From: Symbiodinium sp. CCMP2592
Taxonomy: Eukaryota > Sar > Dinophyceae > Suessiales > Symbiodiniaceae
Direction: 5' to 3'
Length of the DNA: 64,000 nt
NCBI GenBank assembly: GCA_905221615.1
Contig: CAJNDT010005735.1
Span: forward strand, 62,001 to 126,000
Shown here: piece by piece, positions 505-17,901 of the stretch
Layout: each line of letters opens with the position of its first letter
Position numbering within the stretch: position 1 is the stretch's first letter
Made by a program: the position numbers and the translations under genes
The notes under the pieces: model-generated
What the model saw: only the letters and a program-made list of their open reading frames with translations
Database searches by the model: none
Told to the model about the DNA's origin: nothing

Positions 505-712
505 GTACACTAGCTAGCGTATCCTCCCGCCACCTCCCTCTACACCTCCAGGGAGTACGTAGCAAGCCTAGCTTTAGCTAACTGGCTTCACGCAGTAGCA
601 CGGACAACACGAACTTCTCTTTTTAGCGTTGTGGCGAAGTCCCGCGTTAGCCCGGAGAAGAACTCTAGCCTTCCCGCGTTAGCCCGGAGAAGAACTCTAG
701 CCTTCGGCTAGC
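505..712 (-). repeat. split direct repeat B2 (outer copy)
   Basis: This 208-bp copy matches 904-1079 apart from an extra 32-bp tandem unit (about 642-673 repeated at 674-705). It starts with GTACACTAGCTAGCG and ends GGCTAGC. It is the outermost 3' end of the minus-strand element, directly against copia gag. Confidence 0.85.
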
Positions 713-903
713 AGCACAATGGCCACGGAGTAGCGCATGCTTCACCGGCCATGTGCAGTCACTCTAGCAAACAGACAGGCTTCGTTCTGTTTAGCTTCAG
801 AGGAAAACCCCTTCGACGTTTTCTAGCGAAACACCTTCGATGTTTCCAACAAGGATACTAGCGCTAGCATACACTGTCGTACCTCGTGCCTCGGCACGAG
901 TGC
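712..903 (-). repeat. split direct repeat A2 (inner copy)
   Basis: This 192-bp sequence is repeated at 8910-9101 with no difference noticed. It runs from CAGCACAATGGCC to GGCACGAGTGC and is sandwiched between the two B copies, as in PAT/Ngaro elements. The A2/B1 join probably mirrors the junction of the circular DNA intermediate. Confidence 0.9.
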
Positions 904-1079
904 GTACACTAGCTAGCGTATCCTCCCGCCACCTCCCTCTACACCTCCAGGGAGTACGTAGCAAGCCTAGCTTTAGCTAACTGGCTTCACGCAGTAGCAC
1001 GGACAACACGAACTTCTCTTTTTAGCGTTGTGGCGAAGTCCCGCGTTAGCCCGGAGAAGAACTCTAGCCTTCGGCTAGC
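904..1079 (-). repeat. split direct repeat B1
   Basis: This is the 176-bp partner of B2 (505-712), lacking its 32-bp duplication. It borders the internal region just after the RNase H stop at 1104. Confidence 0.9.
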
Positions 1080-1103
1080 TAATCTCCTCGCGCAGCCGTA
1101 GGG

Positions 1104-2120
1104 CTACCAGGGACCTAGCTTACGGGCCTTCTTAGCGAACCTCGGAGCCTTCGGCTCTCCGGTCCTCTTCCTCACTCCTAGCTCTTGGAAGTAGCTAGCC
1201 GAGTGTTCGAGGAGACGGCCCAGCACGCGCCACTCTAGCTTTTCCCCCTCCAGGTTCACCCTGAAGTCCGGGGAGAAACTAGCGAAGTTCTCGTTCGTGA
1301 GATCGTCCGCTAGCTGGTTCAGATCTCTGCGGATCCACTGTAGCTGAAGCTCACAGTTCTTAGCGGAGAGTTCCTCTGCTAGCTCCATCAACACCAGGGT
1401 TGACGGGAACTTCGTCGTCATGGCTTTCTTCAGTAGCGCCTCGTTGGACTGGTTTTCAGTGTAGCCACGGATGGCCACCTTGGAGGTCTTCTTAGCGTCT
1501 CCTTCTGGGACCCAGAGCCTCACGCCGACCAAAGTAGCCAGTAGCTCCAGTGCGGCAATGACCTTGTTCGGGTCCCCTTTAGCGAAGGCCCAGGGGGCCC
1601 AGCCCTCCTTCACCTCTAGCGAGAACCAAGGTCCGTGACAGCCGTCCACTGGCTCAAGGAAGCCCCCGATCCAGGCACGACCGTTCTCGGCCTTAGCGTC
1701 GGTGTAGAAAGAAAGCGGCGCTGCTCTGTCCAATAGCGAAGCCGGCTTCTGGAGCCGGCCTCCAGCTTCCAAGCGGTCTGCTAGCCAACCACAGAGGACG
1801 CGAGCCGAAGCCCACACGCCGCTATACGGGTCCACCAGTAGCTCGCACATGATAGCCCGAAGGTCCCCACCAGATTCACGTAGACCGTCTGGCTGTCGGG
1901 GTCCCCCGTATAGCTTCCTCGGTGTCGATCTGACACCCCAGGTAGCCATGCTCTCCCTCGGCATGCTTGTAGCGCCGGTGGGCTTTAGCGATGTCGCCCA
2001 CCACGGAGAAGGCCACCTCATTAGCGTCAATGTGTTCCCGGAGTAGCTGTTTCTTTTCCCTAGCCCCTGGGGCCCGGATCTTGTCTCGGCACTTGATGCG
2101 GTGGTTGACCCGGACCCCAT
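1104..2120 (-). pseudogene. RNase H domain and C-terminus of the element's pol
   Basis: The useful part is the last two thirds. An RNase H-like block is visible with LSFYTDAKAENG (first Asp), IAALELLATLVG (Glu), TENQSNEALL and QWIRRDLNQLADDLT. These fit the D-E-D-D pattern of retroelement RNase H, which removes RNA from the RNA/DNA hybrid. The first part of the frame is out of register: the RT motif-B-like string VGTFGLSCASYWW is read in a different frame around 1800-1890. Between that and the RNase H no YADD-type catalytic box occurs in any frame, so the palm and thumb appear deleted near 1760. The Arg/Lys-rich tail ends at the stop by B1. Confidence 0.6.
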
Positions 2121-2751
2121 GGGTAGCGTCGTGGATCATCCTCTTCTTTCCACTAGCCTCGTCCTCAACTATGACGGCTAGCGCGGCGATGGCTCGGTGC
2201 TCGCCGTAGCGGGCTTTGAACTCGCCTAGCGTCATCTTGGCCATGAGACCCTCCGCCACGTCCTCTTCGAACTTTTCCCTAGCGAAATCACGGTATTCCT
2301 CCACCGAAAAATAGTTCGGCACCCAAACTAGCACCGCCTCCCAAGGAGCGTTTTCCAGGGGCCACTTTAGCTGCTCCTCAAAGACGTGGGGAGTGCGTGG
2401 TAGCGGGTCTCTCACGCCCACAGGTAGCCCCTCCTCGGCCTGGAGGAGGAAGTCCCGGAGCGGCAGCCATTGCCACATGGACCCCGGCCGTGTCCCTTGG
2501 TGCGGGCCCTTAGCGAGGGCTCCAAGGTCTTCCGGCTGCTCCATTGCCAGAAAGGTAGCCGCGCCGTCTGCCACGAGGTTAGCGACCTCGAAGCTGAAAT
2601 CCGCAAAAATGTTGCCCAAGATAGCGCGGTCCCTCTCTGCAGGTGTTAGCGTCTCCAGACCTCGGGGAAACTCGTAGCTTCGCACAGGGCGGGGCCCTTG
2701 AAAATTAGCCCAGGGCGCTCTGGAGAAGCTAGCGCACGGCGGGGAGAGCAC
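1876..2751 (-). pseudogene. methyltransferase-like motifs plus RT fingers, element pol
   Basis: The N-terminus LSPPCASFSRAPW looks like motif IV of cytosine-C5 methyltransferases (Pro-Cys nucleophile), followed about 70 residues later by FLAMEQPED, which may correspond to motif VI. From roughly residue 150 an RT begins: KKRMIHDATHGVRVNHRI and then the motif-A-like VVGDIAKAHRRY. The frame then runs into unrelated codons, and motif B continues in another frame. RT copies the element RNA. The methyltransferase-like part is a common accessory of dinoflagellate retroelements as I recall, but catalytic activity is not shown. The frame joins the 2729-3037 piece by a one-base shift near 2745. Confidence 0.6.
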
Positions 2752-3037
2752 CCTCGTCGAACTCCTTGTTAGCGATCCGGTCCAGGTAGCTCTGCCGAAT
2801 CTTGGGCTGACTCAGGTCGTATTTAGCGTGCCGCAGAAGATCGACACACTCGACCCGCACGTCTCTCCCGAGCTCCGCTGCTAGCTGGTGCAAACACTGC
2901 GCCACATCTAGCCGGCGCGAGGTACCAGAGAAGAGGTAGAGCACCCTTAGCGGCTTTGCAGGCGTAGCGGCCGGCTTTGCAGGCGTAGCAGCCAGTGGGG
3001 CTGGCGTAGCATCCCCCTCCGGGGGGGTCACAGGCAC
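2729..3037 (-). pseudogene. methyltransferase-like N-terminal piece of element pol
   Basis: After a Pro/Ala-rich leader with repeats of TPAKP comes RVLYLFSGTSRRLDVAQCL, which resembles motif I (LFSG) of C5-methyltransferases and would bind S-adenosylmethionine. ECVDLL follows, a possible acidic motif II. The frame ends just before motif IV, which lies in the next ORF in another frame with a 23-base overlap. So this and 1876-2751 are one domain broken by an indel or joined by programmed frameshift. The start ATG at 3037 is 25 bases after the stop of the zinc-finger ORF. Confidence 0.55.
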
Positions 3038-3061
3038 TGAGGGCGCAGCCGCAGTAGCGGG

Positions 3062-3358
3062 TCAGTTGGAGGGCTTGTCCTCCTTAGCGGCCTCCGTCTT
3101 CTTGGTGGGGCACTGCGTAGCGGGGTGCTTGCCGAAGCATAGCGAGCAGACGTGCTCGAAGTGGCACTTGCTGCCATTCTTGCACCCCTTAGCGTTGTAG
3201 CGGAAGCAAATGGGCTTTTCTTGGGGGGTGCGGTCGGCGCCCAATCGCTTCTTAGCTTTGCCCCGGTTGGGGGGGACATCTTTGCCTTTGCAGTTTTCCC
3301 TTGGGGGTCTTAGCGGGCCGCTCCTCGGTCCAGGTCCAGGGCTGCGGCTGCTTAGCAT
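3062..3358 (-). CDS. small basic zinc-finger (nucleocapsid-like) protein
   Basis: A basic N-terminus precedes CFRYNAKGCKNGSKCHFEH, a CCCH-type finger, followed by CSLCFGKHPATQCP, a second Cys cluster. Such fingers in retroelements bind the genomic RNA, as the gag nucleocapsid does. It lies 6 bases downstream of the gag-like ORF stop, in a different frame, so it may be the gag C-terminus reached by frameshifting. The tail is Lys/Glu-rich and ends before the pol pieces. About 98 residues. Confidence 0.6.
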   Translation of the reverse strand: MLSSRSPGPGPRSGPLRPPRENCKGKDVPPNRGKAKKRLGADRTPQEKPICFRYNAKGCKNGSKCHFEHVCSLCFGKHPATQCPTKKTEAAKEDKPSN

Positions 3359-3364
3359 GGAGGG

Positions 3365-4303
3365 CTAGCGGCGTTGTGAAGTGCCAGGGAAGTGCCGCTC
3401 CTTCACACTAGCGTCCTTGTAAGCATGGACTAGCGCAGCACCAAAGGCGTAGCCAGCCGTCGCCATGACCTTGTAGGCGTGCTTTCGGATAGCGTGCTCG
3501 TACCTGAGCACCAAGGGCCACGGGGGCACTAGCGACCCCGAGTCGGCACTGGACCGGAGACCATAGCAATAGTCTCCAAGGAGATAGTCCTTGTAGCGCT
3601 CGAAGAGAGCCATGGTGACATCCTGTAGCTCCTCCCGGTTGCGATGTCGAAGCTGGATCATGATTAGCGTATTCTGGAGGACCGTGAGCCGCAGGCGTAG
3701 CTGCTCCGGCCCCGAGGGGGTGGATGCCCGAGCTCCACCCTTCTTCATGGATAGCGTGCCGTTGCCGTTCCAGACGGGCAGTAGCGTGTCCGGGTCCCAC
3801 TCGTCCCGGCTGATGACCTCGGTTAGCGGCTGGGCTCGGAACTCGCCCGATTCGAGCTCGGCTAGCTTCTTCTCGATGTACTCCTTAGCGGGGGTCTGCT
3901 TGTCTTCCAGGTCCCCAAACTTAGCGGTAAAGGCTTGGCGCATGGCCATATAGTCGGTAGCTGGGATGGGCTTCGCCCAATCCCGGACCTCGCTCGTAGC
4001 TTCCGCCTCCGCTTGCCCCTCGGTGCGGGAATTAGCGGTCCTCCATGCGATGGTGACCCCCGCGGCCTGAGCCCGGCTAGCGAGCGAGGTGGACGGCTCA
4101 ATCGCGAAGCTGTCCTTTAGCATCTTCTTGAGGTCTGCCTCATCAGTCGCCGAGGCGGCGAACTTAGCAACGGTATCGATACCGTTCGAAAATAGCTCGG
4201 ATTGGATAGCATCCGAGACTTTGTGCTGCGCTAGCAGGAAGCGAAGCTCACTGCTTCCGAGGGCTAGCTTCTTTGCCAGAGCCTCTGCCATGGTAGCGGG
4301 CAC
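3365..4303 (-). CDS. gag-like structural protein of the element
   Basis: This ORF of about 312 residues is mostly helical with no membrane segment. It begins MPATMAEALAKKLALG. Its middle contains a charged helix (TPAKEYIEKKLAELESGEF) and its C-terminal half the string LRYEHAIRKHAYKVM. It lies directly upstream of the zinc-finger ORF and pol pieces, the position of gag, so a particle-forming role is inferred. No named domain was recognised. GCTA occurs in its codons as GCT-A and G-CTA, showing that tetramer selection overrides ordinary codon choice. Confidence 0.5.
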   Translation of the reverse strand: MPATMAEALAKKLALGSSELRFLLAQHKVSDAIQSELFSNGIDTVAKFAASATDEADLKKMLKDSFAIEPSTSLASRAQAAGVTIAWRTANSRTEGQAEAEATSEVRDWAKPIPATDYMAMRQAFTAKFGDLEDKQTPAKEYIEKKLAELESGEFRAQPLTEVISRDEWDPDTLLPVWNGNGTLSMKKGGARASTPSGPEQLRLRLTVLQNTLIMIQLRHRNREELQDVTMALFERYKDYLLGDYCYGLRSSADSGSLVPPWPLVLRYEHAIRKHAYKVMATAGYAFGAALVHAYKDASVKERHFPGTSQRR

Positions 4304-4679
4304 GATGGGCCCTACGCCACCCTAGGAAAAATGTGTAAAATGGAAAAACTTCCTGCTAGCACATAGTGCCAGTCGATAGCTTTCGCTGAGAAGGCGCTGC
4401 AGCAGCAGACAGCCCTAGCAGCCCCACTGACTCCCGGCCCGTTGCCCCCCCCTGCAACCCTCGACACTCTCACTCTAGCTCTTCCCTTCTTTCTGGCTGC
4501 CGACATGTGTGTAGCATGGACTGTAGCGTGCCACAGGCAACCGTAGCGGAGCACGACCCTGACTTTTGCTGCGGCTAGCGGTCGGCAGCAGAGGGCGCTG
4601 CAAAGGTAGCCGCGTGCAAATCAAAAGTAGCGGGTGCAGGTAGCGAGGCCGGGGCCTGTAGCGAGGCAGGGCCTGCCTT
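4304..4679 (-). other. non-coding spacer upstream of gag-like ORF
   Basis: No convincing ORF was seen. It still carries 13 TAGC tetramers at roughly even spacing, showing that the comb does not depend on coding. A short pyrimidine-rich stretch is near 4440-4490. It may hold a promoter or leader for the gag-like ORF, but no motif was recognised. Confidence 0.4.
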
Positions 4680-4985
4680 TTAGCGGCCGCCCCAGTCCTC
4701 CCCGCGGCTCCACTTTTTGCACCCGTCACAGCAGTGACTAGCGTGGTCGTCACACTTAAACCACATACGCCTGTTGCAGGCTCTTAGCGAACAGACCTCG
4801 CAGGTCGTAGCGCACCTGAAGATACAGGCGTTAGCGTCCCAGCTTGGCAATAGCATGGCTAGCAGCTCGCTAGCTCTCTCCCCCTGGGGGGTGTTAGCGG
4901 GCGGGTGGACGTAGCGGCACATCAGTGCCACATCCTCCCGGCCTAGCGTGTAGAGATGCTCTCCATGGTGGATAGCACTCTTCAA
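4680..4985 (-). CDS. small Cys-rich protein of the element
   Basis: About 101 residues. The second half is dense in Cys and His: CIFRCATTCEVCSLRACNRR, then CDDHASHCCDGC. Two or more zinc sites are plausible. It overlaps the preceding ORF by four bases (4982-4985), a compact arrangement suggesting one transcript. No family was recognised. It could bind nucleic acid or act in protein contacts. Confidence 0.45.
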   Translation of the reverse strand: MKSAIHHGEHLYTLGREDVALMCRYVHPPANTPQGERASELLAMLLPSWDANACIFRCATTCEVCSLRACNRRMWFKCDDHASHCCDGCKKWSRGEDWGGR

Positions 4986-5461
4986 TAGCGTGCCATCATC
5001 TCCTTTGCCATAGCGGGGGTTGGGCCCCTTGCCCTCCCCTTCTCATAGCGTTGGTCCCACGAACCTAGCGGCCAGAGATCGCGGTCGACACTGGACCACG
5101 ATAGCTCGAGGTACCAATAGCCCTTCCCTTTGGGAAGGCTGTTAGCGTGGGCTCCAGGCGGGGGTCTGGCTCTGCCCTTTAGAGCGGCCCGGAGGTTGGC
5201 GGGCATGCCCCCCGCCTGCTCAATAGCGCGGTCCTGCTGGAGCTCGCGGCGGAGCAGCTCGAGGTAGCGGTCCGGATCCTCGAATAGCGTGTTCCACGTG
5301 CAGTCGAACACATTGCTTGTAGCGGCCGGCTGGGCCTTCCCCTTGCCCTTCTCGCCTCGGCCTTGGCCGCTAGCGGTTCGAGGGAACGAGGGGCTAGCGG
5401 CCCGCGGCCCGACTTCCATGAACCTCCTAGCGCTAGCAGACTCAGCCGGCGTGGGATCCAC
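4982..5461 (-). CDS. unidentified 159-residue ORF of the element
   Basis: The N-terminus is low-complexity and basic (GRGEKGKGKAQP). The C-terminal half has an ordered-looking stretch (TWNTLFEDPDRYLELLRREL) and a Trp/Tyr-rich segment (GYWYLELSWSS). It overlaps the upstream coiled-coil ORF by 20 bases and the downstream Cys-rich ORF by 4. No family was recognised. These three linked ORFs are not part of known PAT/Ngaro elements as I know them. Confidence 0.45.
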   Translation of the reverse strand: MDPTPAESASARRFMEVGPRAASPSFPRTASGQGRGEKGKGKAQPAATSNVFDCTWNTLFEDPDRYLELLRRELQQDRAIEQAGGMPANLRAALKGRARPPPGAHANSLPKGKGYWYLELSWSSVDRDLWPLGSWDQRYEKGRARGPTPAMAKEMMARY

Positions 5462-6200
5462 GGTAGCGGCTGCAGCTGTGGCAGCAGGCCCCGCCGTAGC
5501 AGCTGCTGTAGCGGCAGCAGGTGTTCGGGTCTCTGCTAGCGGCCTCCTCTGCTGCCAGGGAGGCTTTGCTAGCGGCCACCGCCTGCTGGGACTCCAGCTC
5601 GGCGGCCTGCTCCTCTTTAGCGAGCCGCTCTGCGGCTTCTTTCTTCTTCTGTTCCAGCGCGGCCGCTGCGACTCTCTGGTCGTGCTCGGCCTTCTTCTCT
5701 AGCGCCAGCTTAGCGGCTATGGCCTCCGCCTCCTTGCAGGCCTTGGCCTTCGCAGCACTAGCGGCCGCATTGGCTGCGGCAAGTTGGTCTAGCTGGGCCT
5801 TTGCTGCTGCAGCGGCGGCCTCTGTAGCGGCGAACCTCTGAGTGAGGCCCGCGGACATAGCGGCATCCAGGCTAGCGATGTCCTCCTGGGACAGGTCCGC
5901 CCAGCTGGTAGCTGACAGAACTCCTCTGCTGGCGGAGCCCGGCCCCAGCCACTTCCTGGGCGGGGCCTCTTTGTCTAGCCTCTCGATCGCCTCGTGGGAC
6001 ATAGCGATCAGCTCCTGTAGCAGAGGCTTGTCGAGATAGCGGTGCAGCCCGTCGGTGCACTCCGACGGCCGAAACCGTAGCGCCTTCCGCAGACCGCGGA
6101 GGGTCTCCGGCAGACTAGCGGGCCCATCGGCCGTAGCGGGGTCTGCGGCCCCCTTGCCCTGGGGCGAAGTAGCTCGGGCGTCTTTGCCCTTTCCTCCCAT
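5442..6200 (-). CDS. Ala-rich coiled-coil protein of the element
   Basis: About 252 residues, starting MGGKGKDARATSP. Residues about 125-225 form a long Ala/Glu/Lys/Gln helix (for example AAALEQKKKEAAERLAKEEQ) with heptad character, so a coiled coil is likely. The last 20 residues become Cys/Ser-rich and probably run out of frame where the next ORF begins. Function unknown. It could be a structural or RNA-particle protein. Confidence 0.5.
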   Translation of the reverse strand: MGGKGKDARATSPQGKGAADPATADGPASLPETLRGLRKALRFRPSECTDGLHRYLDKPLLQELIAMSHEAIERLDKEAPPRKWLGPGSASRGVLSATSWADLSQEDIASLDAAMSAGLTQRFAATEAAAAAAKAQLDQLAAANAAASAAKAKACKEAEAIAAKLALEKKAEHDQRVAAAALEQKKKEAAERLAKEEQAAELESQQAVAASKASLAAEEAASRDPNTCCRYSSCYGGACCHSCSRYRGSHAG

Positions 6201-6774
6201 AGCGGTGCCCTAGGCACAGATCAGGTGAAACTGCTAAGAAAATCTAGCTAGCAAAGCCGAGGAGGGAGGTTTAGCACAGTCACTGGCTCCTGCGCCTAGC
6301 TCCTTTGTTGCCCTGTTGCCTAGCGGGGTCCAAAACCCGCACGTTTCGTAGCGCCTTCCTCCGCTCCGCTCCTTCCTGCAGGACGGACCTAGCGCAAGCA
6401 CTGGCTCCTCTCCTAGCTCCTGTGTTCCCTGGGTGGCCAGAGAGGGGTCGCCCGGCCCCGGTTTCCTAGCGCCTGCCTTCGCTCCTTGCTCCTCCTGCTT
6501 AGCGGAACACGAAAGCACACACAGGCAACACAGCAAGTGACATGTAGCAAGAACGTGGTTCCCTCCCTCTCTTCTTTCTCCCGCCCCCCCCTCCCCCGCC
6601 CCCCCCGAAAGGCCCCCCCCCCCCCAGCACACCCCTTTTAAAGTCTAGCGGCGTTTCGCAGAGAGAGAGAGAGAGAGAGAGCGAGAGGCAGAGAGGGGAG
6701 GACAGCGGTTCCGACCTAGCAGTCTTTCTAGCCTTGGTGCGAGTGCGAGTTCGGCGGCTTAGCACGCCCTGCGC
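6201..6774 (-). other. non-coding spacer with GA and C tracts
   Basis: No ORF looks protein-like. It holds a (GA)n run at 6660-6683, a C-rich block at 6582-6627 and many TAGC tetramers. Two similar stretches (about 6290-6350 and 6395-6470, both reading GCTCCT...CCTAGCG) suggest an internal duplication. It separates the recombinase gene from the other genes, so it may hold the promoter for the second cluster. Confidence 0.4.
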
Positions 6775-7563
6775 TCAAGGGTGACTGCTAGCGGACCCTG
6801 TTGCGGGATCCTCGGGGGCCTCGTCATCCGAGTTAGCGAGCGACCCTTCGCTAGCGTCTCCTTCGGAGATAGCCCCTTGGTTCGGCCAGCATAGCTTACG
6901 CACATGTGTGTACTCATGCGGCCCCGGAACCGAATCGAGAACCCTAGCGTTGCGGAAAGCGCGGCGCTTTCCCATCCAGCAACCTGTAGCGCCCGCTTTG
7001 TGCAGGCGGAAAATAGCACCTGGGACCTCTACGATCACGTAGCTGCCCTGGCTGCGGTCAGGAACCCTGGCCTGCTTCTTAGCAGGCCGTTCCACGACCT
7101 CTGCAGAGGCCTCGGAGCTACTCCCTGCCACTAGCGGTTCCTCGGGCTCGACCGGTTCCTCGGGAACCTCTAGCTTTTCCGCCTCGGTCGGGACTCCTAG
7201 CAGACCTTCCATCCAGATCTTCCGCAGCCGCGCCGCCATATCGATGGTTAGCTTGGCCCTTTCTTCCAGCCAAGGCTCGAGATCTGCGGCAATTTCGCGC
7301 TCGTCGAGCGCTTCGTAGCGGTCGTCCCCCCTAGCTGTCTTAGCGAAGAGAGCTTGGAGACGGGACACCCTACCCGCATAGGATCTAGCGTACACGTCGG
7401 ACCCTTCGGGTTTCCAACGCCCTAGCAGATCCTTGTCCTGCGGTGGGATCTCCTTTAGCGCCAAACCCGTTGGTAGCACCGAGCGCTCACTGTGCTCCGT
7501 CCAATAGCCCTCGACCTCCCGGGGGTAGCCCATGATAGCCAGCAGCCCCGCAGTTGCTACCAT
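6775..7563 (-). CDS. tyrosine recombinase, C-terminal catalytic part
   Basis: The first 62 residues carry the second half of the recombinase active site: WTEHSERS (HxxR, His24 and Arg27), GRW (Trp50 in the His/Trp position) and VYARSY with Tyr58 as the likely nucleophile. Tyrosine recombinases integrate the circular cDNA of these elements by strand exchange. The rest is an acidic tail of about 200 residues rich in Glu and Pro, with no clear domain. It overlaps the upstream ORF by seven bases: the stop of one lies within ATGGTAG of the other. A shift in frame or a reinitiation would be needed to join the two halves. Confidence 0.7.
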   Translation of the reverse strand: MVATAGLLAIMGYPREVEGYWTEHSERSVLPTGLALKEIPPQDKDLLGRWKPEGSDVYARSYAGRVSRLQALFAKTARGDDRYEALDEREIAADLEPWLEERAKLTIDMAARLRKIWMEGLLGVPTEAEKLEVPEEPVEPEEPLVAGSSSEASAEVVERPAKKQARVPDRSQGSYVIVEVPGAIFRLHKAGATGCWMGKRRAFRNARVLDSVPGPHEYTHVRKLCWPNQGAISEGDASEGSLANSDDEAPEDPATGSASSHP

Positions 7564-8381
7564 AGCGTCCGCTCCAGCTGCCCTGCCCGGCCCAGCCGCG
7601 GCATGAGGTAGTCCCGAGCATAGTTAGCGTAGGCTTTGAGGAGATCGAACCCGGTCACCAGCCAGCCTTTAGCGACCAGGAAGGCGTGCTCCGACACAAC
7701 GACCGGTAGCTCCTTAACCCTTCTTGTAGCCCCGGAAGTCTTTGTCTTCCGGAGGATGGTGGTGAGACGACCCTCCACCATCAATAGCTCCGCCGGCAGG
7801 ATTGCTTGGAGGTCGGACCATCTTAGCGTGGCCCAGACCTTGACCAACTTAGCCCAGGCCCAGACACGCCAGCCCACCGCCAGGGCGGGGTTGACCACCA
7901 CCAGCTCTAGCTGCACCAGCATGTAAACGGGGTAGCGCGGAGCCCTCTTGATCAAAGGGGCTCCCTCCGCTAGCTGTTCCACTATGCTGTCCTTAGCGGC
8001 CCAAACCAGGCGGCCAAAGGTGGTTCGTAGCTCGACCGAAAAGTCGGCCACCTTCTCCATCCAGGAGATAGCCTTGAGAATAGCTTCCGGAACCGACCGG
8101 CCGCAAGGTTCATCGCTCCTAGCGAGGAGGTAGTCCACCAAGTCGGCAGCGGTGCCCGGAGGCGGCCTGAGTTTAGCTGCGTGGAGCCACTGGCGCCACT
8201 GCCTGTAGTAGCTCAGGTAGCGTTTCAGCGTAGAGGCCCGCGTCTTCCCTGGCAGCAGCATAGCTGCCCGCACGGGATCCAGGCTCCCCTGAAGCTTAGC
8301 GAGAATAGGGGCACGCATCTCTAGGCTCCTCATGGAGCTTCCTAGCCCATACTTCCAGCAACCGTTCCTCCCTAGCGGCAC
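7557..8381 (-). CDS. tyrosine recombinase, core-binding and first catalytic half
   Basis: Residues 45-110 resemble the SAM-like core-binding domain (ASTLKRYLSYYRQWRQWL). The catalytic half shows WATLRWSDLQAI, with the first catalytic Arg near residue 191, and LRKTKTSG, a beta-hairpin Lys. The remaining residues are in the overlapping next ORF, so all five expected active-site positions exist across the pair. The N-terminal 15 residues probably belong to another frame; the natural start lies upstream in broken frames (8296-8823). It is the first gene of the element, unlike PAT/DIRS where it is last. Confidence 0.75.
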   Translation of the reverse strand: MPLGRNGCWKYGLGSSMRSLEMRAPILAKLQGSLDPVRAAMLLPGKTRASTLKRYLSYYRQWRQWLHAAKLRPPPGTAADLVDYLLARSDEPCGRSVPEAILKAISWMEKVADFSVELRTTFGRLVWAAKDSIVEQLAEGAPLIKRAPRYPVYMLVQLELVVVNPALAVGWRVWAWAKLVKVWATLRWSDLQAILPAELLMVEGRLTTILRKTKTSGATRRVKELPVVVSEHAFLVAKGWLVTGFDLLKAYANYARDYLMPRLGRAGQLERTLW

Positions 8382-8823
8382 TGATCGTGCCGGGCTGTAG
8401 CACCTTTCGGTTCCGCTCCCCGGGGGGAGGTCTTAGCGGCGCCATAGGCTGGCGCGTAGCTTCTTCGACCCCCTCTGTTGGAGCCGGTAGCGGGGGCATC
8501 CGTGCCCTCCATGCCGTGCTTCCTGTAGCCAGCAGTAAACCTGTCTAGCGTGCGCCTACGTTCCTGCTGGACTGTAGCCTGCGCATCTAGCTCTGCCTCC
8601 ACCTCCCAGCCCTCGAAGAGCACTCCTGTCTGCGGGACCCACGAGGGTACCTCCCTGGAGGGAGCCCCGCGGTGTCGTCCGCCCCTAGCTCCGTGGGAAC
8701 CTCGGTTGGACACGAAGAACTTAGCGGGGGCGGGGAATCCCCAACCACAGTAGCGCAGTCGACGGCTGTAGCAGCTGCACCATCTGGCGTGGTCGGCGCC
8801 AGGGTAGCGTCGCTGTCCGACAT
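8296..8823 (-). pseudogene. recombinase N-terminus, broken over three frames
   Basis: Protein-like text appears in pieces: MSDSDATLAPTTPDGAAA from 8823 to about 8690, then LFEGWEVEAELDAQATVQQE in a second frame (about 8620-8500), then GTISAAREERLLEVWARKLH in the first frame again (about 8400-8330), before the core in a third frame. Short introns or indels would explain this. One stop at 8587-8589 is the TAG of a GCTAG motif, but it lies in a frame already left. Low complexity and high Pro/Thr at the start suggest a disordered leader. Confidence 0.45.
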
Positions 8824-8909
8824 GGCAGCGCACCCAAAGCAGGGCTAATTAGCCCTGTTCCCCTTCCTACCCCCACTCGAAAATTGCCCCCCAGTAGCTG
8901 GGGGCCTTT

Positions 8910-9101
8910 CAGCACAATGGCCACGGAGTAGCGCATGCTTCACCGGCCATGTGCAGTCACTCTAGCAAACAGACAGGCTTCGTTCTGTTTAGCTTCAGAG
9001 GAAAACCCCTTCGACGTTTTCTAGCGAAACACCTTCGATGTTTCCAACAAGGATACTAGCGCTAGCATACACTGTCGTACCTCGTGCCTCGGCACGAGTG
9101 C
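8910..9101 (-). repeat. split direct repeat A1 (5' end of element)
   Basis: This 192-bp copy of 712-903 forms the 5' terminus of the minus-strand element. Immediately beyond it, at 9101/9102, the interrupted copia gag resumes in the plus direction. Confidence 0.9.
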
Positions 9102-9790
9102 TGGTCTTCCTGGTCCACTGCTCCTTCCAACCCGGCGGCTCGGCAGAGAAGGCGTATCTGCTGCAGTTCTTGACGGCGCCGGAGTCCGGAAACTCAGTCG
9201 ACACGGCTTTGTCGTTGGCCCGGAAGTGGGTGAGACTCTTGAGGCGTGGCAAAGAACTTCAGGTTGTGCTGCCGGATCCGAGCCTCTTGTGCCGTGGCTT
9301 GGACAAACTGCATGGGGGAGTCTTTGCGGGCAACAGACACCCCAGTGCGGCCTTTCGCATAGCCAGCTTCAAGTTGGAACGTCAGTTGGACTACAAGGCC
9401 ATCGCCAAGGACGTTGAGGACTATGCGCAGTTGATCCTTGGTGAGTTGGAGGCTGCTTTGCTTGCGCAGCCATTGCCGATGCGGGCAAGGGCAAGGCCAA
9501 GGGCAAATCGCGGCAACCTTGTTGGGCGTGGTCCGATGGTTCGGGCTGCAAGTATGGCCAGAACTGTATGTTTCGCCATGACTCTCTGGGCCCAGGTCGC
9601 TGCTGGACATGTGGAAGCAGTTCCCACCTCAAGCCGCAATGCCCATTGCATGGGCAAGGGGGGGCGGCCCTACTACTACGTCGTCGGCGGCTACGGCTGG
9701 AGGTGGTGGTGGTGGTTCGCAAAATTCGTCTTCGGCTACTGCGACTTCTTCGGCAGCGGCATCGGATGGGAAAGGTGCGGGGGACGATAA
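9098..9790 (+). pseudogene. copia gag, second half after the insertion
   Basis: This continues the capsid cut at 504. It begins VLVFLVHCSFQPGGSAEKA and includes SLARKWVRLLRRGKELQ and LPDPSLLCRGLDKL. The frame is good to about 9500 and then reads through the knuckle region out of register (a run of Trp and Phe at the end is not protein-like). The translation upstream of 9098 belongs to repeat A1 and is fortuitous. Gag function is particle assembly. Broken at both ends in this copy. Confidence 0.65.
9505..9665 (+). pseudogene. gag zinc knuckle in a shifted frame
   Basis: In the frame of the ORF at 9568 the translation gives CKYGQNCMFRHD, a CCCH-like cluster, and CWTCGSSSHLKPQC, a perfect CX2CX4HX4C knuckle. 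This is the RNA-binding nucleocapsid signature of copia and retroviral gag. The capsid lies in another frame upstream and the protease in a third frame downstream, so two frame changes occur within about 150 bases. Confidence 0.7.
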
Positions 9791-10442
9791 ACCTTCGCGG
9801 AGACCGAGGAAGAAGGGCGGTGGCAAAGCCAAAGATGCAGTGAGGAAAGCTGAGGAAGGCTCTGCAGGTGATGGTGGAGCTGCTGCGGCGGCTTCGTCGG
9901 CTACTACCAATACCTCGGTGCCTTCGGCGACTTCGGGTGAATCGGCCCGCGAGGACTTCTTTGAGGAGGCGGCGAAGGCTTTGAAGTCTTTGAGATTGGC
10001 CCGAGCTACTTTGGATCGGGTGAATGCTCTTGGTGTAGGTGCGGTTCGTCGTGCACTGGTGGATTCAGGAGCGACTACCTCGATGAGATCGGCTGGGGAG
10101 CGGGAACTTCAAGGCTTGCCTCAGAGGAAGGTGTTGTTGGCGGAGGGCGGGACGGTGTTCTACCAGCTTCCCGGCGGGACGCTGTTGACCGAGAAGGCGA
10201 CCGCCCCAATCCTTTCCATGAGCGACCTGATGGAGATCGGCTGCCGTGTGGTGTGGAGTCCCGATGAAGGTTGTCACATCACTCACCCGGTGCGCGGGAA
10301 CTTGTGTGCTCGAATCTTCAATGGTTGCCCTGAGTTGGACGAGCAGTTGGGTTTGGACCTTATTGCGGAGGCCGAGGCCACGAAGTTCCGACGTCGGGAA
10401 GCCGAGCTCATGGTGAACAAGCTGGTGATGCAGTGTGCCTGA
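9660..10442 (+). pseudogene. copia aspartic protease region
   Basis: After a low-complexity Ser/Gly/Lys linker, ALVDSGATTSMRSAG near 10050-10095 carries the DSGA active-site signature of retroviral-type aspartic proteases, which act as dimers to cleave the polyprotein. ILSMSDLMEIGCRVVW follows, typical of the C-terminal half. It ends with a TGA at 10440-10442, overlapping the start of the pol frame by ten bases. The stop or a frameshift separates it from integrase. Confidence 0.7.
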
Positions 10443-12796
10443 AGCCTGTGGGCCTGGCTTGGGCCTGGCTGTATCGGGCCTTCCCCAAGGCCCCTTCTTG
10501 GCTTCTCTCGGCCATTCCGGTGGCGGCGTCTATGGATGGAGGCAAGGTTCCATGGAACCGTCGTGAGCGAAAGCGGTGGAGGCAAGCTTCGGCGGTGGCG
10601 GTCCACTTGTTCTGTGGAAAGGACCGTGGGTGCTGGAAGTGCAGGGCTGAGGCGGCCCACGTGGTTACTGTGGACCAGGCGGAGGACATCATGGCTGATG
10701 ATACCTTTGCGGCCTTGCTGGATCTGGCGCTGGCTGGAAAGATCAAGGCGGTCTTTGGAGGGCCGCCTCGTCGAACTTACTCGGCCCTGCGCAATCTGGG
10801 GACGGATGGCGATGGAGGTTCGCGACCGCTACGTGATCGCGATGGACCTGGAAGATGGGGCCGTGAAGGACTTTCGGAATGGGAGCAGTGGAGGGTCCGG
10901 CAGGATACGATCATGGTTTTTCGGATGATCTTTCTTTGGATGGTGGCAGCGGCAGTGGCCAAGGGTAGTGGAGATCGCCTACAGGATTTTCTCATGGAGC
11001 ACCCTGAGGATCCGAAGAAGTTTCTGAAGGAGGCCGCTCCGGCGTCGTTGTGGGCCACTCCGGAGATTCGCCTTTTGGAAAGGACCCTTGGGTGGCACGC
11101 CTGGGCATTTGATCAGGGACCTCTCGGGCATGTTCGTCGACTCCCTACCAGGGTGCTGTCGTCGGTGAGATGTCCGCCGGAGTTTCCATCTACAGTTTCG
11201 GTGGAGGAACGGGACCATGATGGAGCGGGTTTTCGGTCAGCATCCTGGGCGGCATGGGCTCCTCAGCTGCATGTCGTGATCAAGGACGTCATTGAGGCTA
11301 GCCTTGCGGGCGCGGCCTTGGAAACCCTCCGGAAGATGGATGCGGCGTTCTTGGAGCATCTACGACGGGACCACACCCCGTATCGGCGGGACTGTCGGGC
11401 TTGCCTTGCTGGAGCTTTTCGTGGGCACCTTCATCGACGCATTGTCACGCCGGAGGCCTGGTGTTTGTCCCTCGATCTCATCGGGCCAACGCGACAGGGT
11501 CTGGATGAGAATCTGAAGAAGGTGAAGTATGGACTCATCGGGTCTTTGGTGGTTCCGGATGTGCTGGGCAAGCTCCTTCAACCCACCGATCCAGAAGGGG
11601 AACCTGATGATGGAGCCGGGGTGGGTTTCATGGACGACGAGGACCCTGTGCTTGCTGGGGGAAGCGAAGCGGATGATGAGGGTGAGGCTCCAGACGCGCG
11701 TGACACGGAGAAGAACTTAGCCAAGTGGCAAGCGATGGCTGAGAAGGAGAATGTTGAGGGAGCCTCGGTGGTGGAAGTTCCCTTCTTTGTCCCGCTAGCG
11801 TCTAAGGCAGCCCCGGAGGTCTTGTCGGCGACCAAGGAGATTCTTCTACAAGTTCGGCGCCTTGGCTTGGTGGTCCGACGGATCCATACCGATCGAGGGC
11901 GAGAGTTTGTCAATCGAGCCTTCCGAGGAATGTGTCGGGACCGGGAAATTGTGTACACCTCGACCACTGCCGATGACTTCCGAGCCAATGGTCGTGTCGA
12001 AGCTCTGGTGGGCCGCGCAAAGTGTGCGGTGAGGACTTACTTGGCCAGTTCGGGCCTTGGCTCAAATATGTGGGCCTTTGCGATGCGGCACTACACGGTC
12101 CGGATTCGACAGGCGGTGGCTACTCAGCTTGGAGCTCGGCTGCCTCGCCTTCCACCTTTCGGGACCAAGGTCTTCGTGAGGAAGCGGTCGTGGCAGATGA
12201 AGAAGGAGGAGTTCACCGAGAAGGTTGTGGCGGCTCACATCCTTTGTCCTTCTTTGGATGTGTCGCGTGGGTTCTTGGTGAGGACCGAGGACGGCAGCTA
12301 CTTGACGACCATGGTGGCGGTGGAGAATGTCAAGGAGGTGTCCGGTGAGTTTGAGGTTGATGCCCCACCTGCCCCTTCGGGAGAACCGGGAGCCCGGCGT
12401 CGCATTCATGGCAAGCAGCCTATGGTGGCGTCCCTTGAGGAGTCTGAGTACGTGGACAAGCTTGCGGTGTGCGACGATGAGCACCTAATTCAGGATGAGG
12501 AGCTGGCGGAGGCCTTCTTGGATGCTGGTGATTTCTCAATGGAAGCTGTGGAAGAGCTGCTGAATGGATTGTGGCTTGCTGATGTTCGCGCTCCCAATCG
12601 TCGCGGAGGAGCCTTTGACCACAGCCAGTTTATTTCGGTCCACACGGCAGGAATGTTTCGGCATGGAGGAGTTGTTGGAGCCACCAATTTGGCTCGTCAC
12701 CGACCTGCCCTTACGAAGTTTTTGGTGACTGCTATGCATGAAGAACCTCCTTCCAGAAGGCACCACCTTTACTACCTTGTCCCTCAACTTCAATAA
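10433..12796 (+). pseudogene. copia pol: methyltransferase-like block and DDE integrase
   Basis: Residues about 55-125 show VHLFCGKDRG (motif-I-like), VVTVDQAED (acidic motif) and VFGGPPRRTYSALRN, where C5-methyltransferases have Pro-Cys. Here the Cys is replaced by Arg (codon CGT at about 10768), so this copy should be catalytically dead. The integrase core is clear: CLSLDLIGPTRQG (first Asp), RRIHTDRGREFVNR (second Asp), RANGRVEALVG (Glu). Integrase inserts the cDNA. The C-terminal third is acidic, and the frame ends at 12796 after sliding out of register near 12735, where the next domain continues in another frame. Confidence 0.75.
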
Positions 12797-14612
12797 TACG
12801 ATGCAGTGCCACCGGGACAGCAACAATGAGATGGGCACGAAGGCCTACTTGGTGGCTTGTGGAGCGTTTGTTGGCGGTGCTCTATGGTGTCATGACACTG
12901 CCGTCAAGGAGGATGTGACCTGGAACAAGGTGCAAGGCCGTTGGCTTCCTGGCATTGCTCGGCCTACTTATCATCAACTCGTGTCCTTTGACCCTCACCA
13001 ACTTCATCAGCCCCTTCCCTGGGAGGGAATGCGCTACACCATCACGGCCTACACCGTGGGCTGCGGGGGCAATTGCGTCAGCCAGGATCGTCATCTACTA
13101 CAAGGATTGGGATTTCCTCTTCCACCACATGTTCGGGCTGGCCCCGAAGGAGGAGGCAGTGGGGTCAGAGGAGAGATGAAGAGCCTGCGGCGTCCAAAAA
13201 GCGCGTTGAGGAAGTTTTGCGGAGCTTTTTCGTCTTGCGCAGAGTGTGACCTGGTTCCGGGGGAGGATCAGACCTTGGAATCTTCTCTGGTTGGTGGTGG
13301 AGTCAGTCAGGGTGATCCAGTTTGTGTTTGCAAAGGTCGCGAGGTGGATCCGTCGTTGTGTACGTGCAGAGTGTCTGAGGTGAGCGGTGGTGGAGTTCCC
13401 CAGAAGTTCTACATCGGCGACGAGGGCCTCGATTACGGCACCGAGGCTGAGATCAATGAGGAAGGTTCTCGAAGGGATGATGGGGGCCCGGCACAGTGGG
13501 GAGCTTTTGGTCCTCCTACGGTGGCCAAGCTGGAACCTTTGGATGGGAACGACGTCGAGTCCTACTACTTGCTGGGCTCCGAGGTTCCTCTGGAAGTCGG
13601 CTGGGACCTGTTCGAGGGTCACTTGGATGATCTTCGCTTGGCTACCGTGCAGGAAGAGTATGCGGAGAGGGAACAAGCGATTCAGCGAGGAGAAGCCGGT
13701 GATGTGGCTGAAGGGCCGCTGCCTCGTTGGATTGAAGCTCGGGTTCGTCTTGAAAGCCTGATGGAGAACTCGTCGAAATGGGACGAGGAGAAGGCCCTTG
13801 ACTCGGTGCGTAAGACCGAGGTGCTCGAGGATCCCGATGAGGCGCCTTTGCATACGAAGACCATCCCCAACGAGGTGGTGAGACGGGAGCTTCAGCGCTG
13901 GGCTCCTTCTATGTTCTCTGAGTATGAGAGCTTGGTGCGGGAGAATGAAGCCGTTGAGCCTTTCACCGAGGCCCAGCTTCAGGAATGGAAGGATGCTGGC
14001 CGTGATTACGACTTGGTGCCGGGCAAGACCGTGCACACCATCAAGGCGTTCTCTGGGCGCCTGAAAACGAGGGCGGTGATTTGCGGGAACTTTCTGGCCC
14101 AGTCGTTTGCCCGGGAGCAGAAGTATGCGGCCGGAGCGGACAGCGTGCTCATCCGTCTTGTGCTTCGTGAAGCTGCCCGTCGAGGATGGAGACTGGCCGT
14201 GTTGGACGTCAAGACGGCTTTCCTTCTAGCTCCGCTGTTGTTTCAGGAGAAAAGACCTACGTTGGTTTTGGTTCCGAAGCTGTTCCTGTTGGCGGGTATA
14301 TGCAAGGAACCGATGTGGAGAGTTCGCAAGGCTTTGTACGGTTTGTCCACCTCGCCGAAGAGCTGGGAGGCCTACCGCAACCAGGTGATGGCCAAACTTC
14401 GCGGACGTGTGCCCGGAGGTGAAGTTACCTTGATCCCTTCTGGTGTCGATGATAGCCTGTGGTATGTGCAGGTGGGCACTCGACGAGCCGGGGCAGTGAT
14501 CTGCTATGTTGATGATCTGCTGATTGCCGCGGAGCCGGGCGTCGCCGAGGAGGTGGCTCGTATGTTCACTACTACTTGGAAGTGCACGGAGCCACAGTGG
14601 GATGATGTTACC
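12738..14612 (+). pseudogene. copia pol: dioxygenase-like block and reverse transcriptase
   Basis: Residues about 10-110 resemble a 2OG-Fe(II) dioxygenase core: HRD at 12810-12818 (HxD), GALW, FDPHQLHQ with the distal His at 12996 or 13005, and a basic residue in MRYTITAY at 13032. Further on the RT shows TRAVICGNF, LAVLDVKTAFL (motif A), KALYGLSTSPKSW and VICYVDDLLIAA (YVDD motif C near 14505), as in copia RTs. Protein homology fades after WKCTEPQWDD at about 14612, so RT thumb and RNase H are missing. The long frame runs on to 15959 only because a different sequence happens to be in frame. Confidence 0.75.
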
Positions 14613-14904
14613 TTCAACCCACGTCGTGAGCACCATCCTCCTCCATCGGCACGCCCTGGTCTTCAGGCTGAGCCACAGGCACCTCCTCCGGACCTGTGTC
14701 GGCCCCGTCCGCATCCATGGCGCGCCAACGGCTTACGACTCCTTTACCGGAGCGGCGTTGGGCTCATAACCCCCGAATGCGGAGGTCACGCTTGTTTTGG
14801 AACCGAAAAGCCTTTCAAATCAGACGTGTCAACATGCTTTACATATGCGGAACATCCCTCTTCCCAGACACACTTCCAGTTGCGTGCACCCACCCTGGGA
14901 GAGC
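14613..14904 (+). other. junction sequence without a convincing gene
   Basis: This is the stretch between the truncated copia RT and the next coding piece. It is open in the RT frame but the translation is Pro/His/Arg-rich and not RT-like. The end (CCTGGGAGAGCAG followed by GGTAGCC) would suit a 3' splice site, so it may be intron of the downstream gene. Confidence 0.4.
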
Positions 14905-15959
14905 AGGGTAGCCAGGGATTGCCCAAGCCAACAAAGCTCGAGATGATTTCCGGAGGACCATCCAAGGAGTGGGAGGCATGGTGCAGGCATTACCGAAAGG
15001 CTTACGGTATCATGCTTGGCAATTTCGGCTACACGCCTGCCAAGAGCATCAATGGTATCATATACGATGAAGATGGTACCACGGATATCGTGAGTGCACC
15101 TGTCTGGAACCCAGCCGATGCCCTTGTGGCGATCTCGATCCATGGGATCAGAGCGGTTACGACCATGGCCTCCACGATCGCGTTTGGGGGTGCTCCGCCA
15201 ACGATCAAACCGGCGGTTCCCGGCAAGCCGCAGAGATTCGTTGTCATGCACGACGGTCTCTTGACCTTCAGGGCTGCCAAGTCCTGGCACGATGGTGAGA
15301 TGAACGCTCACCTGAAGAACGCGCTGGCCAGCTTTGGGTTCCCAGATTCCGAGGTGCGCGTACAAGCGTTCGATGATGGCTTCAAGCTTAAGGACATGGT
15401 CGACACTCTCGCGATGATGCAGAGCGACGCCTCCGTCCCGTCGTCGAACGTCCACATCCTCATTCTTTGGAGAGGAGAAGACTTGTGGAAGCTGGACCAA
15501 AGCTGGAGTAAGCTTACCGGTGACATCGATACGGCACGATCACAATACGCCAAGACGACTGCCCGGGAAGCTCTCGAGGAATACAACACGATCTACGGGT
15601 CGGTGTCCGTGTCACCGAGCATGGGACACCTTCCGACTCTCCCCGGACCTCTCTTCGAGAAATACAGAGTGGAAATGAGGGCGATCTGGGATACGATCAG
15701 GAGATCCAATTTCCTCACACTGTCTTTTGACGCTATCCTCGAGGGGCTACCGTTCCTGAAGGGGTATCATATTATGCATGAGTCCAAGACGATTGGGGTC
15801 TTGTGTACTCGCATCTGCTCGATGTTCACGCTTGCGGCTCTTGCGCGGTTTCCATCCTACGGGACCCGTCAAGAGTATCAAACCGCAACCGACAAGATGT
15901 GGGAGCGCACCCCGGTCCCGGTAGAAAAGCCGAAAGGCACTCCACGGTGCAGGACCTAA
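14905..15959 (+). CDS. unidentified globular protein, partial
   Basis: The translation from about 14905 is well ordered, with mixed alpha/beta character: LEMISGGPSKEWEAWCRHYR, KSINGIIYDEDGTTDIV, RFVVMHDGLLTFRAAKSW, VHILILWRGEDLWKL and LFEKYRVEMRAIWDTIRR. Composition differs from the copia pol. I do not recognise a family. The alternating hydrophobic strands would suit a Rossmann-like or hydrolase-like fold, but no catalytic motif is clear. The C-terminus slides out of frame near 15930 and continues in another frame as an acidic tail (next entry). The start is unknown: an upstream exon or truncation by the copia element is possible. Confidence 0.45.
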
Positions 15960-16360
15960 TCGAAGGGGCAGATCGCGGTCCCGATAACCGAGCCGCAAAG
16001 ACCGTCAATATGAGTCAATTCGGCTTTGATGACGATGATGATGAAGACCTGGCCGACAGCGCAGGTCCATCTGCACCCAGGATTCCGATCAAACAGGAAC
16101 AGGGAACCTTGGCAGAGCTTCCGGGCGTCCGTCACCCGGAACCGATTGTGCTGCCCGCGACTCCTGTGCCTGGACAGGCAATGCCGGTGTCTCCCAGCCT
16201 TGCTCCGGCTGCTAAGAACGATGAAGAGTCTAGCGGCGATTCCGATGATGAAGAGCAGCAAGGGGACGGAGACACGGAGATGTCTGCCGCCAAGAAAGAG
16301 GAATTCGATGAGGAATTCAATGCTTCTCGACCAGCACGTTGCGGCCGGATCTATAGATAG
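15930..16360 (+). CDS. acidic disordered tail, frame-shifted continuation
   Basis: In the shifted frame the text reads VQDLIEGADRG, then MSQFGFDDDDDEDLADSAGP, a Pro-rich linker, and ESSGDSDDEEQQGDGDTEMS before an Arg-rich end at the stop near 16360. Such acidic Ser/Asp/Glu tails are common in nuclear or RNA-associated proteins. It probably belongs to the protein at 14905-15959, joined across a one-base indel or a short intron. It could also be a separate small protein starting at the ATG near 16011. Confidence 0.4.
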
Positions 16361-16842
16361 AGCCTGTTAGCCACATAGAGCCGGATACCACATAAGTACG
16401 GATGAATAGCTTTTTTTGCTACAGAAAAATTTTAGCCGATCTTGACATCTTCAAGAAGCCGCAAAAAAAAGATTGGAAACGCATCCGTCCATGATCGTTT
16501 CAAAAAAGGTATACCCACGAACCCCTGCGTGGCCGTGTCAGCGCACCATGATCCGAACGAAAAGCCATGTGAACGCAAGCTATATATTCACTTTATACAA
16601 TATATGTTGAAGTTATAGTAATGGATTTTGGAGTCGCTGCAGTATCGCGCACACATATATTATACCCACACCCATACGCTGGACGGCGGAGAAGTAATCG
16701 TTGTAAAAAACGTTGAGTAAATACATATAATCAACAAAACATATGGTATGCATATAGGCGTCCTTATACACTATGTGTATATATATATAAAAAAAAATGT
16801 ATATGTATTATTATGCATAAAAGCAAAAATCTTCTGTGTTTC
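16361..16842. other. AT-rich spacer, no gene seen
   Basis: A T-rich and A-rich stretch at 16410-16510 may be a 3' region of the upstream gene. A short (TA)n run lies at 16774-16790. No ORF of note. Confidence 0.4.
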
Positions 16843-17433
16843 CTGAACGCGCGCGCGCGCCCCCCCAGCGCGCGCGCGCACCTCCCCCCCGCGCGCGCGC
16901 GCGCGCGCACTTCCCACCCCACGCGCGCGCGCGCGCGCCGAGGAGCGCGCGCGCGCGTGACTAAATTGTTTATATACAGGGACATATAAATATTCCATAT
17001 CTAGAACATATCCGCAATCATTCGAGAATCACTTGGTGCTATTTATAAGGAAATCAAACATGTTGTGTGATTTCTGCAATCGGGCGCGCGGGCGCTCCTC
17101 GCACGCGCGCGCGCGGCGCGCGCGCGCCCTCGCACGCGCGCGCGCGCATGCCGCGCGCGCCCCCCTCTCTGGGCGCGCGCGCGCGCATCCCGCGCGCGCG
17201 CGCGGCCAGTAGCGCGCGCGCTTAAATTGTTTATTTTTACGGACATGTCAATATTCCATATCTAGAACGCATCCGCAATCATTCGAGAATCATTTGGTGC
17301 TATTTAAGGAAATTATTTAAAATGCTGTGTGATTTCTGCAATCGGCGCGCGCGCGCTCTTTTGCGCGCGCGCGGTGGAGGCGTGCGCGCGCTGGGGGGGC
17401 GCGCGCGCGCGCGTGGTTTTCGCGCGCGCGCAC
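16843..17433. repeat. about 262-bp tandem repeat with long (CG)n blocks
   Basis: Three blocks of nearly pure alternating C and G (16843-16960, 17081-17221, 17344-17433) alternate with two AT-rich spacers that match each other well (TATTCCATATCTAGAAC at 16991 and 17252; TTTCTGCAATCGG at 17071 and 17333). The period is 261-262 bp. Alternating CG runs favour Z-DNA and hold an extreme CpG density. Arg/Ala-rich ORFs across it are artefacts. Confidence 0.85.
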
Positions 17434-17608
17434 TATACAATTTTCAAATATTTCTATTTCACGCTCCAAAACACAGACTGTGCGTGGTGTTGTCTCCGCG
17501 CGAGCGTTGTTCTTCCTCAGAACGAGTTAACCATGAGAAGCCAGAGTACTGCTTCGTTGCAGCCAATCAAGAGCTAGAATAATGTGCAGCCCATGGGTGA
17601 GAGCGCAA
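17434..17608. other. short unique spacer
   Basis: No convincing gene. On the minus strand it lies just downstream of the two spliced-leader-like fragments, so it could be the 5' part of a retroposed mRNA, but the first ATG there gives only six codons before a stop. Confidence 0.3.
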
Positions 17609-17648
17609 CTTGAGCCAAAAGAGGAAGCAAAATTGAGCTTGAGCCAAA
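17609..17648 (-). other. two spliced-leader 3'-end relics in tandem
   Basis: On the minus strand TTTGGCTCAAG (17648-17638) and TTTTGGCTCAAG (17620-17609) occur 29 bases apart. Both match the 3' end of the conserved dinoflagellate spliced leader, which ends in CATTTTGGCTCAAG. Two 11-12 base matches this close are unlikely by chance. Repeated leader relics are known marks of mRNA retroposition followed by renewed trans-splicing in dinoflagellates. Confidence 0.55.
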
Positions 17649-17750
17649 CAGCGTAAAATCAAAAACATATGCTACAAAAAAATGTCTTATCTGTAACTGT
17701 GTGAGAATATAGTATGTTGTGCATGTTTGCATACAGAAGTATGTATGTAG

Positions 17751-17805
17751 TATACGTATATATATATATATATATCTATATGTATATATATATATATATG
17801 TATAG
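17751..17805. repeat. (TA)n microsatellite
   Basis: An alternating TA run with CTA and GTA interruptions. The Tyr/Ile ORF across it is an artefact. Confidence 0.9.
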
Positions 17806-17901
17806 CTTATTGAGAGGAGGAGGACTGAGGAGCGAGAGGAGAGGAAGGAGAAACATGTGAACACTGTCTGATCTCAGCGCACTTGTCGCACTCAGCTGTT
17901 T

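Follow-up and report, generated by a model that had tools for sequence, protein, structure and literature searches.

A GCTA comb along the sense strand of Symbiodinium DIRS-like retrotransposons, a possible family-specific packaging label

Why should a retrotransposon repeat one tetramer about every 30 nucleotides (nt) through its genes, spacers and terminal repeats? The question is raised by a DIRS-like (putative tyrosine-recombinase) element on the minus strand at positions 505–9101 of the window, a 64,000-nt stretch of Symbiodinium sp. CCMP2592 DNA (contig CAJNDT010005735.1, positions 62,001–126,000). An initial annotation had described in this element a strand-biased comb of TAGC, with about one copy per 30 bases or 7–9 times the random rate, ending at both element borders. 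The comb is a real, sense-strand feature of the whole element, in its coding and non-coding parts alike.

The comb within the window

TAGC occurs 267 times on the plus strand of the element (31/kb), which is 8.0 times the 1/256 rate and 8.9 times the expectation from base composition. A count of all tetramers, as the annotation had proposed, places it first in 505–9101. The local densities match as well, with 28 TAGC starts in 1116–2022 (27 of the copies wholly inside), 13 in 4304–4683 and 16 in 6199–6762. The outermost teeth, at 511 and 9063, both lie within the borders at 505 and 9101 that were set independently by direct repeats. A single tooth (376) is found in the 504 bases preceding the element, and the density outside falls to about 2/kb, with 19 copies in 9102–20000 and 100 in 20000–64000.

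The strand bias is pronounced. GCTA is present 42 times on the plus strand, and since 32 of these 42 lie inside GCTAGC, which contains both words, only about 10 are independent. The coding strand of the element is the minus strand, which makes GCTA the sense word: the described comb exists, while its functional word is GCTA and not TAGC. Three quarters of all TA dinucleotides in the element (267/351) are inside TAGC.

Related elements and codon choice

Relatives that keep the proteins and lack the comb would have spoken against it, and were looked for. The sense-strand GCTA excess is present in 47/47 relative loci besides the window (38 in L010–L028 and L030–L048, six in L049–L054, and L055, L056 and L057), which are the best matches of searches, some overlapping or sharing a contig and possibly parts of one copy. 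In L051 the comb is confined to the first 4 kb. In a distant clade (P0032), 45 genome matches were scored out of 3471 first-look candidates; where they can be assigned, they belong to the three known DIRS families. No relatives were confirmed in the viral contigs or prokaryote genomes searched.

Synonymous codons were shuffled in 13 open reading frames (ORFs) of the three families. The shuffles yield about half of the observed GCTA, and in 13/13 ORFs none of 300 shuffles reaches the observed count, for example 67 against 30.2 (standard deviation 3.7, maximum 40). The excess is not codon bias or composition. Codon use instead bends to the word, more sharply than first noted. In four ORFs of the relative L054, Leu CTN is CTA in 89/132 cases after G as opposed to 2/95 otherwise, and Ala is GCT in 92/121 cases before a codon starting with A as opposed to 18/146 otherwise. 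Teeth occupy all three codon registers as claimed, although unequally (32/8/27 in the L054 recombinase ORF).

Spacing of the teeth

The gaps are too even for chance. Their coefficient of variation (CV) is 0.50 in the window as opposed to 0.89 in the null, and ranges overall from 0.47 to 0.60 against about 0.9 for uniform placement. The rate of meeting the next tooth in the window climbs from about 10/kb in the immediate neighbourhood of a tooth to about 90/kb at a distance of 40 nt, and dips to 66/kb past 60 nt. Pair correlation across the three families is 0.24 at 4–9 nt, 0.52 at 10–15, 0.81 at 16–21, 0.86 at 22–27 and about 1 farther out. Its flatness past about 28 nt rules out strict periodicity and indicates a refractory, gap-filling pattern.

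The same rule is visible in the choice of sites. Among the 357 protein-permitted GCTA sites in the L054 ORFs, 6/55 are used when a tooth lies less than 8 nt away and 65/66 when there is none within 30 nt; few are used with another tooth within 8–16 nt. Selection thus asks for approximately one word per 30 nt of the sense strand. Ten control runs, in which comb ORFs were tested for other words or control genes for comb words, gave an overall use of 0.02–0.33 without such a rise with distance. Predicted RNA pairing around the teeth of L054, L049 and L050 showed no consistent hairpin context. Bases within the teeth of L054 and L049 have nearly the unpaired probability of identical bases outside them, and in L050 pairing is commoner at the G and C of GCTA (unpaired 0.18–0.20 vs about 0.31).

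Conservation of the teeth

Natural selection keeps the teeth in place. In a 1.8-kb region aligned across 19 copies and containing 57 teeth, fourfold-degenerate third positions differ at 0.023 per cell inside teeth (66 columns) and at 0.124 outside (273 columns), a 5-fold difference reached by 0/20,000 permutations. GCTA is intact in 97.2% of cells, compared with 84.3% for random tetramer windows. The contrast is larger in the non-coding spacer, where 13 teeth in 17 copies give 0.0023 inside and 0.0617 outside (27-fold); the 17 rows are spacers other than the window's own (4322–4679). In the window lineage itself, third positions differ at 4/77 inside and 105/533 outside teeth.

Teeth also coincide between the families, in 46, 56 and 33 cases against 10.9, 13.2 and 8.7 after codon shuffling (maxima 21, 22 and 18 of 300), while third-position agreement between these families is merely 0.36–0.51. 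The comb is thus old, and its turnover slow.

Different words in different families

The initial annotation had confined the comb to one retrotransposon. This did not hold: three DIRS families carry combs, and so do two copia families with other words. The DIRS families write related words, MGCTA in that of the window, GCTANA in L049 and GGMTA in L050 and L057. In L057, GCTA and GATA together number 275 in 8.2 kb (33.5/kb, as against 31/kb in the window), and GATA is found within 12 nt of GCTA 10 times when 34.3 are expected, with six control words near expectation. The related L050 behaves likewise (7 vs 25.2 expected). The gap CV in L057 is 0.59 for G[CA]TA, 0.72 for GCTA alone and 1.00 for GATA alone, and 0.47 for GGMTA in pol. 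GCTA and GATA thus appear to serve as one tooth in L057.

These patterns bear on whether mutation bias or editing makes the word without any function. Such a process would yield coding and non-coding teeth alike, as observed. It is nevertheless highly improbable, since words avoid close neighbours and occupy long gaps, teeth stay constant where synonymous positions change, L057 seems to have two words in one comb, and likely precursors of GCTA persist on the sense strand of the window element (GCCA 39 and GCTG 60 copies, counted without an expectation).

A word-blind tetramer test against codon shuffles was applied to 20 ORFs and detected combs in five: three DIRS ORFs (GCTA, z 7.3–11.2) and the copia elements L001 and L002. 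In L001 (sense 717–3304), ATTG is present 62 times and 4 times antisense, with z 8.5, CV 0.43 and a mean gap of 36 nt. Its permitted sites are used in 0/15 cases at less than 8 nt and 28/28 at 30 nt or more, and codons follow (Ile is ATT in 24/25 before G vs 9/21; Leu is TTG in 32/38 after A vs 13/41). In L002, CTTT reaches z 9.7 and ACTT z 9.0 with a CV of about 0.6; ACTTT occurs 58 times and 3 times antisense, and is used at 0/6 sites at less than 8 nt and 35/39 at 30 nt or more. The seven near-identical copies L002–L008 form one copia family with the same word (ACTTT/CTTT). The L001 and L002 proteins share 322/708 identical residues, yet the words differ.

The 15 comb-less ORFs, from the window's copia element and 13 other controls, have top z values of 2.8–5.5; five exceed 95% of their own null, with uneven spacing (CV 0.85–1.53). 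The controls included L058, L059 and L061, which are putative host genes, and L062, a repeated methyltransferase ORF that we take to be of the published long interspersed nuclear element (LINE) type. No word combining high z with even spacing was found in 17 non-comb stretches (at least 1 kb) of the relative loci.

Two rivals turn on this diversity of words. A host RNA-binding protein recruited by the word might export or stabilise the element RNA, which has no introns, or shield it from decay or silencing, with each family relying on its own host protein or site. It would account for a comb on the sense strand only that runs through the whole element, non-coding parts included, and for copia words that are very different. 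Related DIRS families, however, differ by gradual changes of the word (MGCTA, GCTANA, GGMTA), which better suits a co-evolving reader encoded by the element, as a host reader would tend to keep the word fixed, and we regard a host protein as unlikely.

Alternatively, the word could be a preferred cut site of RNase H or another nuclease, dicing the sense RNA into pieces of about 30 nt that leave or prime the second strand. DIRS and copia elements both have RNase H, a family-specific enzyme would permit different words, and the restriction to the sense strand, the full-length coverage including the terminal repeats and the spacing of about 30 nt would all be explained. Copia-type elements, however, prime from a polypurine tract and would have no need for such a word. 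We consider a cut site improbable, and less likely than a recruited host protein.

A DNA or RNA modification at the word was among the processes first suggested, made either by the methyltransferase-like domain that the element carries in pol, with an SPPC motif, or by the host (hydroxymethyluracil). L050 and L057 have SPPV, without the Cys, and keep a full comb. The words are family-specific (GCTA, GGMTA, ATTG, ACTTT) and strand-specific. According to the accessible text of PMC5890265, CG is what the enzymes of related elements methylate, without any further preference, and that of PMC11071213 reports no such word in its hydroxymethyluracil map; 'GCTA' does not appear in the main text of the latter. 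Modification is therefore very unlikely.

A possible packaging label

At somewhat below an even chance, we favour the reading that the Gag or nucleocapsid protein of the family itself binds the word on the genomic RNA (or the first cDNA), so that the word labels this RNA for coating and packaging. The initial annotation had proposed that some process acts on the DNA or RNA at the tetramer. Some such action is supported, and of its four guesses RNA packaging is the best and base modification is disfavoured. RNA packaging fits best because the comb is restricted to the sense strand, runs through genes and non-coding stretches alike, is maintained by purifying selection and obeys a spacing rule resembling a footprint.

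In such a mechanism the zinc-finger motifs of GagB would bind the word and its predicted SAM-like domain would polymerise, with one protomer per word and a footprint of perhaps 16–30 nt. A dense comb would nucleate a continuous coat, leading to packaging of the transcript, while host mRNAs and the RNAs of other elements, carrying the word by chance alone, would be left unpackaged. Differing words would let many families share one cell without packaging each other. More tentatively, we propose a packaging code, in which each family bends its codon choice to write a private word of 4–5 letters about every 30 nt of its entire RNA, its own Gag reads it, and the words shift over time much as a recognition language would.

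How retrotransposon RNAs are distinguished from cellular or rival RNA is, to our knowledge, poorly understood, and a comb of private words, if true, would be a simple answer. It would also constrain coding sequence in cis, unnoticed by ordinary codon analyses, and provide a computable signature (word, spacing rule and strand) with which to find such elements and to pair a Gag with its word.

Several observations weigh against a packaging label. We infer the reader of the word from gene anatomy, and three DIRS dialects do not suffice to ask whether word and fingers co-vary. The His of the CCCH motif is Tyr in L049, and the Pfam match of the L054 CCCH motif has an E of 0.22. A Foldseek search with GagB gave no match at E ≤ 0.001; a match to Ty3 was weak, and the Ty3 capsid is absent among the structural matches listed. 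The copia stretches examined do not include the copia Gags, and the window's own copia element has no comb, so that elements of this kind do not all use the device. The comb of L002 is sparser for ACTTT (mean gap 79 nt) and its distance effect less clear for CTTT, with 6/36 sites used at less than 8 nt and 22/26 at 30 nt or more, but 12/14 at 12–15 nt. Its family shows no clear extra conservation in CTTT columns (25/2772 vs 209/22895; fourfold sites 3/434 vs 48/3126; no formal test), although L002–L008 are too similar for a telling comparison. When degenerate words are searched, control ORFs reach z 5.9–6.9, close to GCTANA in L049 and the best L001 word (both 7.3). Finally, GCTA is third in intactness among the 146 tetramers that have 5 sites or more, and other tetramers also coincide between families, TGG words (via Trp codons) more than GCTA.

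Short over-represented sequences, some strand-biased, with a dedicated reading system are well known, including DNA uptake sequences, Chi sites and PATC. Unlike the comb, they serve uptake, recombination or chromatin and act genome-wide or at the level of the host, and we know of no rule of one per 30 nt inside one element for any of them. A closer parallel is found in the dispersed packaging signals of RNA viruses, where, according to the accessible text of PMC6281560, many genomic RNA sites share a motif whose proposed reading by the coat protein selects and assembles the genome. In the comb, too, one motif recurs at many places on the genomic strand. In contrast to the sequence-structure motifs described there, the comb consists of a bare word of 4–5 nt that lacks a consistent context of predicted pairing, comes at near-saturating density, differs from family to family and is found in retrotransposons. 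The annotation knew of no description of such a comb, and we found none among the results listed by full-text searches of open-access papers, subscription papers being outside the search.

The carrier element

Direct repeats define the element on the minus strand as A-coding-B-A-B, the split-repeat arrangement of DIRS elements, with two pairs at 100% identity: A1 at 8910–9101 (the sense 5' end) with A2 at 712–903, and B1 at 904–1072 with the terminal unit B2 at 505–673. The repeats are identical although several frames are broken, so the window copy is probably a recent insertion that may have been mobilised in trans. It has frameshifts and lacks stretches found in relatives; L054, with longer frames, displays the complete gene order. 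Third positions of the window lineage differ at 0.197, compared with 0.034 and 0.035 for first and second positions, which indicates that its proteins were constrained until recently and disfavours an amplified non-autonomous subfamily. The idea that the word is an inserted unit was also rejected, as deleting each GCTA shortened the longest sense-strand frame from 343 to 305 amino acids (aa).

The gene pieces, all on the minus strand, were assigned by reading the frames and by comparison with relatives. The putative tyrosine recombinase (6775–8432) lies in two overlapping frames, 7557–8432 and 6775–7623, and is a single 773-aa ORF in L054. Conserved among relatives are R414 (30/30), K441 (28/30), H530 (24/25), R533 (24/24), W556 (23/25) and Y564 (24/24), a set of R, K, HxxR, W and Y that we take to be the catalytic motif of tyrosine recombinases. 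No recombinase family is among the Pfam matches at E ≤ 1 of 31 relatives, and there was no informative PDB match.

The gagA-like protein (5442–6209) has a broken frame, a coiled coil by eye and a Cys-rich end near 4680–5042. The spacer with teeth (4322–4679), which is strongly conserved at the teeth in the homologous spacer of relatives, separates it from gagB. The N-terminal and middle part of gagB lies at 3365–4321, a SAM-like domain being predicted for the L054 homologue, and the C-terminal part of gagB (3065–3364, another frame) carries CCCH-type and zinc-knuckle Cys/His residues.

Pol consists of methyltransferase-like (SPPC) and putative reverse transcriptase (RT) pieces at 1876–3061, with a deletion compared with relatives, and an RT/RNase H end at 1104–2135. 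An xDD box, presumably the RT motif, was detected by pattern in 118/120 (best 120 of 735 relatives; the named ones are Symbiodinium and Durusdinium). The match to RVT_3 is weak (E 0.029), comparison with solved structures was uninformative, and neither recombinase nor RT has a significant Pfam match. The methyltransferase-like domain of L049 matches PF00145 at E 0.1, below the cut-off. At the SPPC position, the same best 120 of 735 have Cys in 32, Val in 1, Ala in 1 and 86 unmatched by pattern; the SPPV of L057 lies inside an open 1045-aa pol.

As far as the accessible text of PMC5890265 goes, Symbiodinium DIRS elements have A-coding-B-A-B repeats and RTs that fit Pfam poorly. The present element resembles SymbioDIRS-Dnmt3 and the others described there in this arrangement, in a separate recombinase ORF, in a methyltransferase-type domain joined to RT and in an RT too divergent for Pfam. 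It differs from them in that the methyltransferase-like domain barely matches Pfam, with SPPV in one family. The main text of PMC5890265 contains no 'GCTA', 'TAGC', 'tetramer' or 'tetranucleotide'.

Other repeats in the window

A copia element (9300–16000) adjoins the DIRS element and is strongly depleted in TA (0.44). It was rejected as a comb carrier. CTAC numbers 40 against 8.7 by base statistics, but its codon-aware z is 2.9 with a CV of 1.13 (second ORF); CCTT in the first ORF has z 5.5, above the null maximum of 4.5, but a CV of 0.95 and flat occupancy. Outside the DIRS element, 2.5-kb tiles of the window contained no word with high z and even spacing except CGGAG (CV 0.50) at 50–52.5 kb. 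This stretch (50000–52500) is densely repetitive, with 85 copies of ACGGA, 86 of CGGAG and several open frames on both strands.
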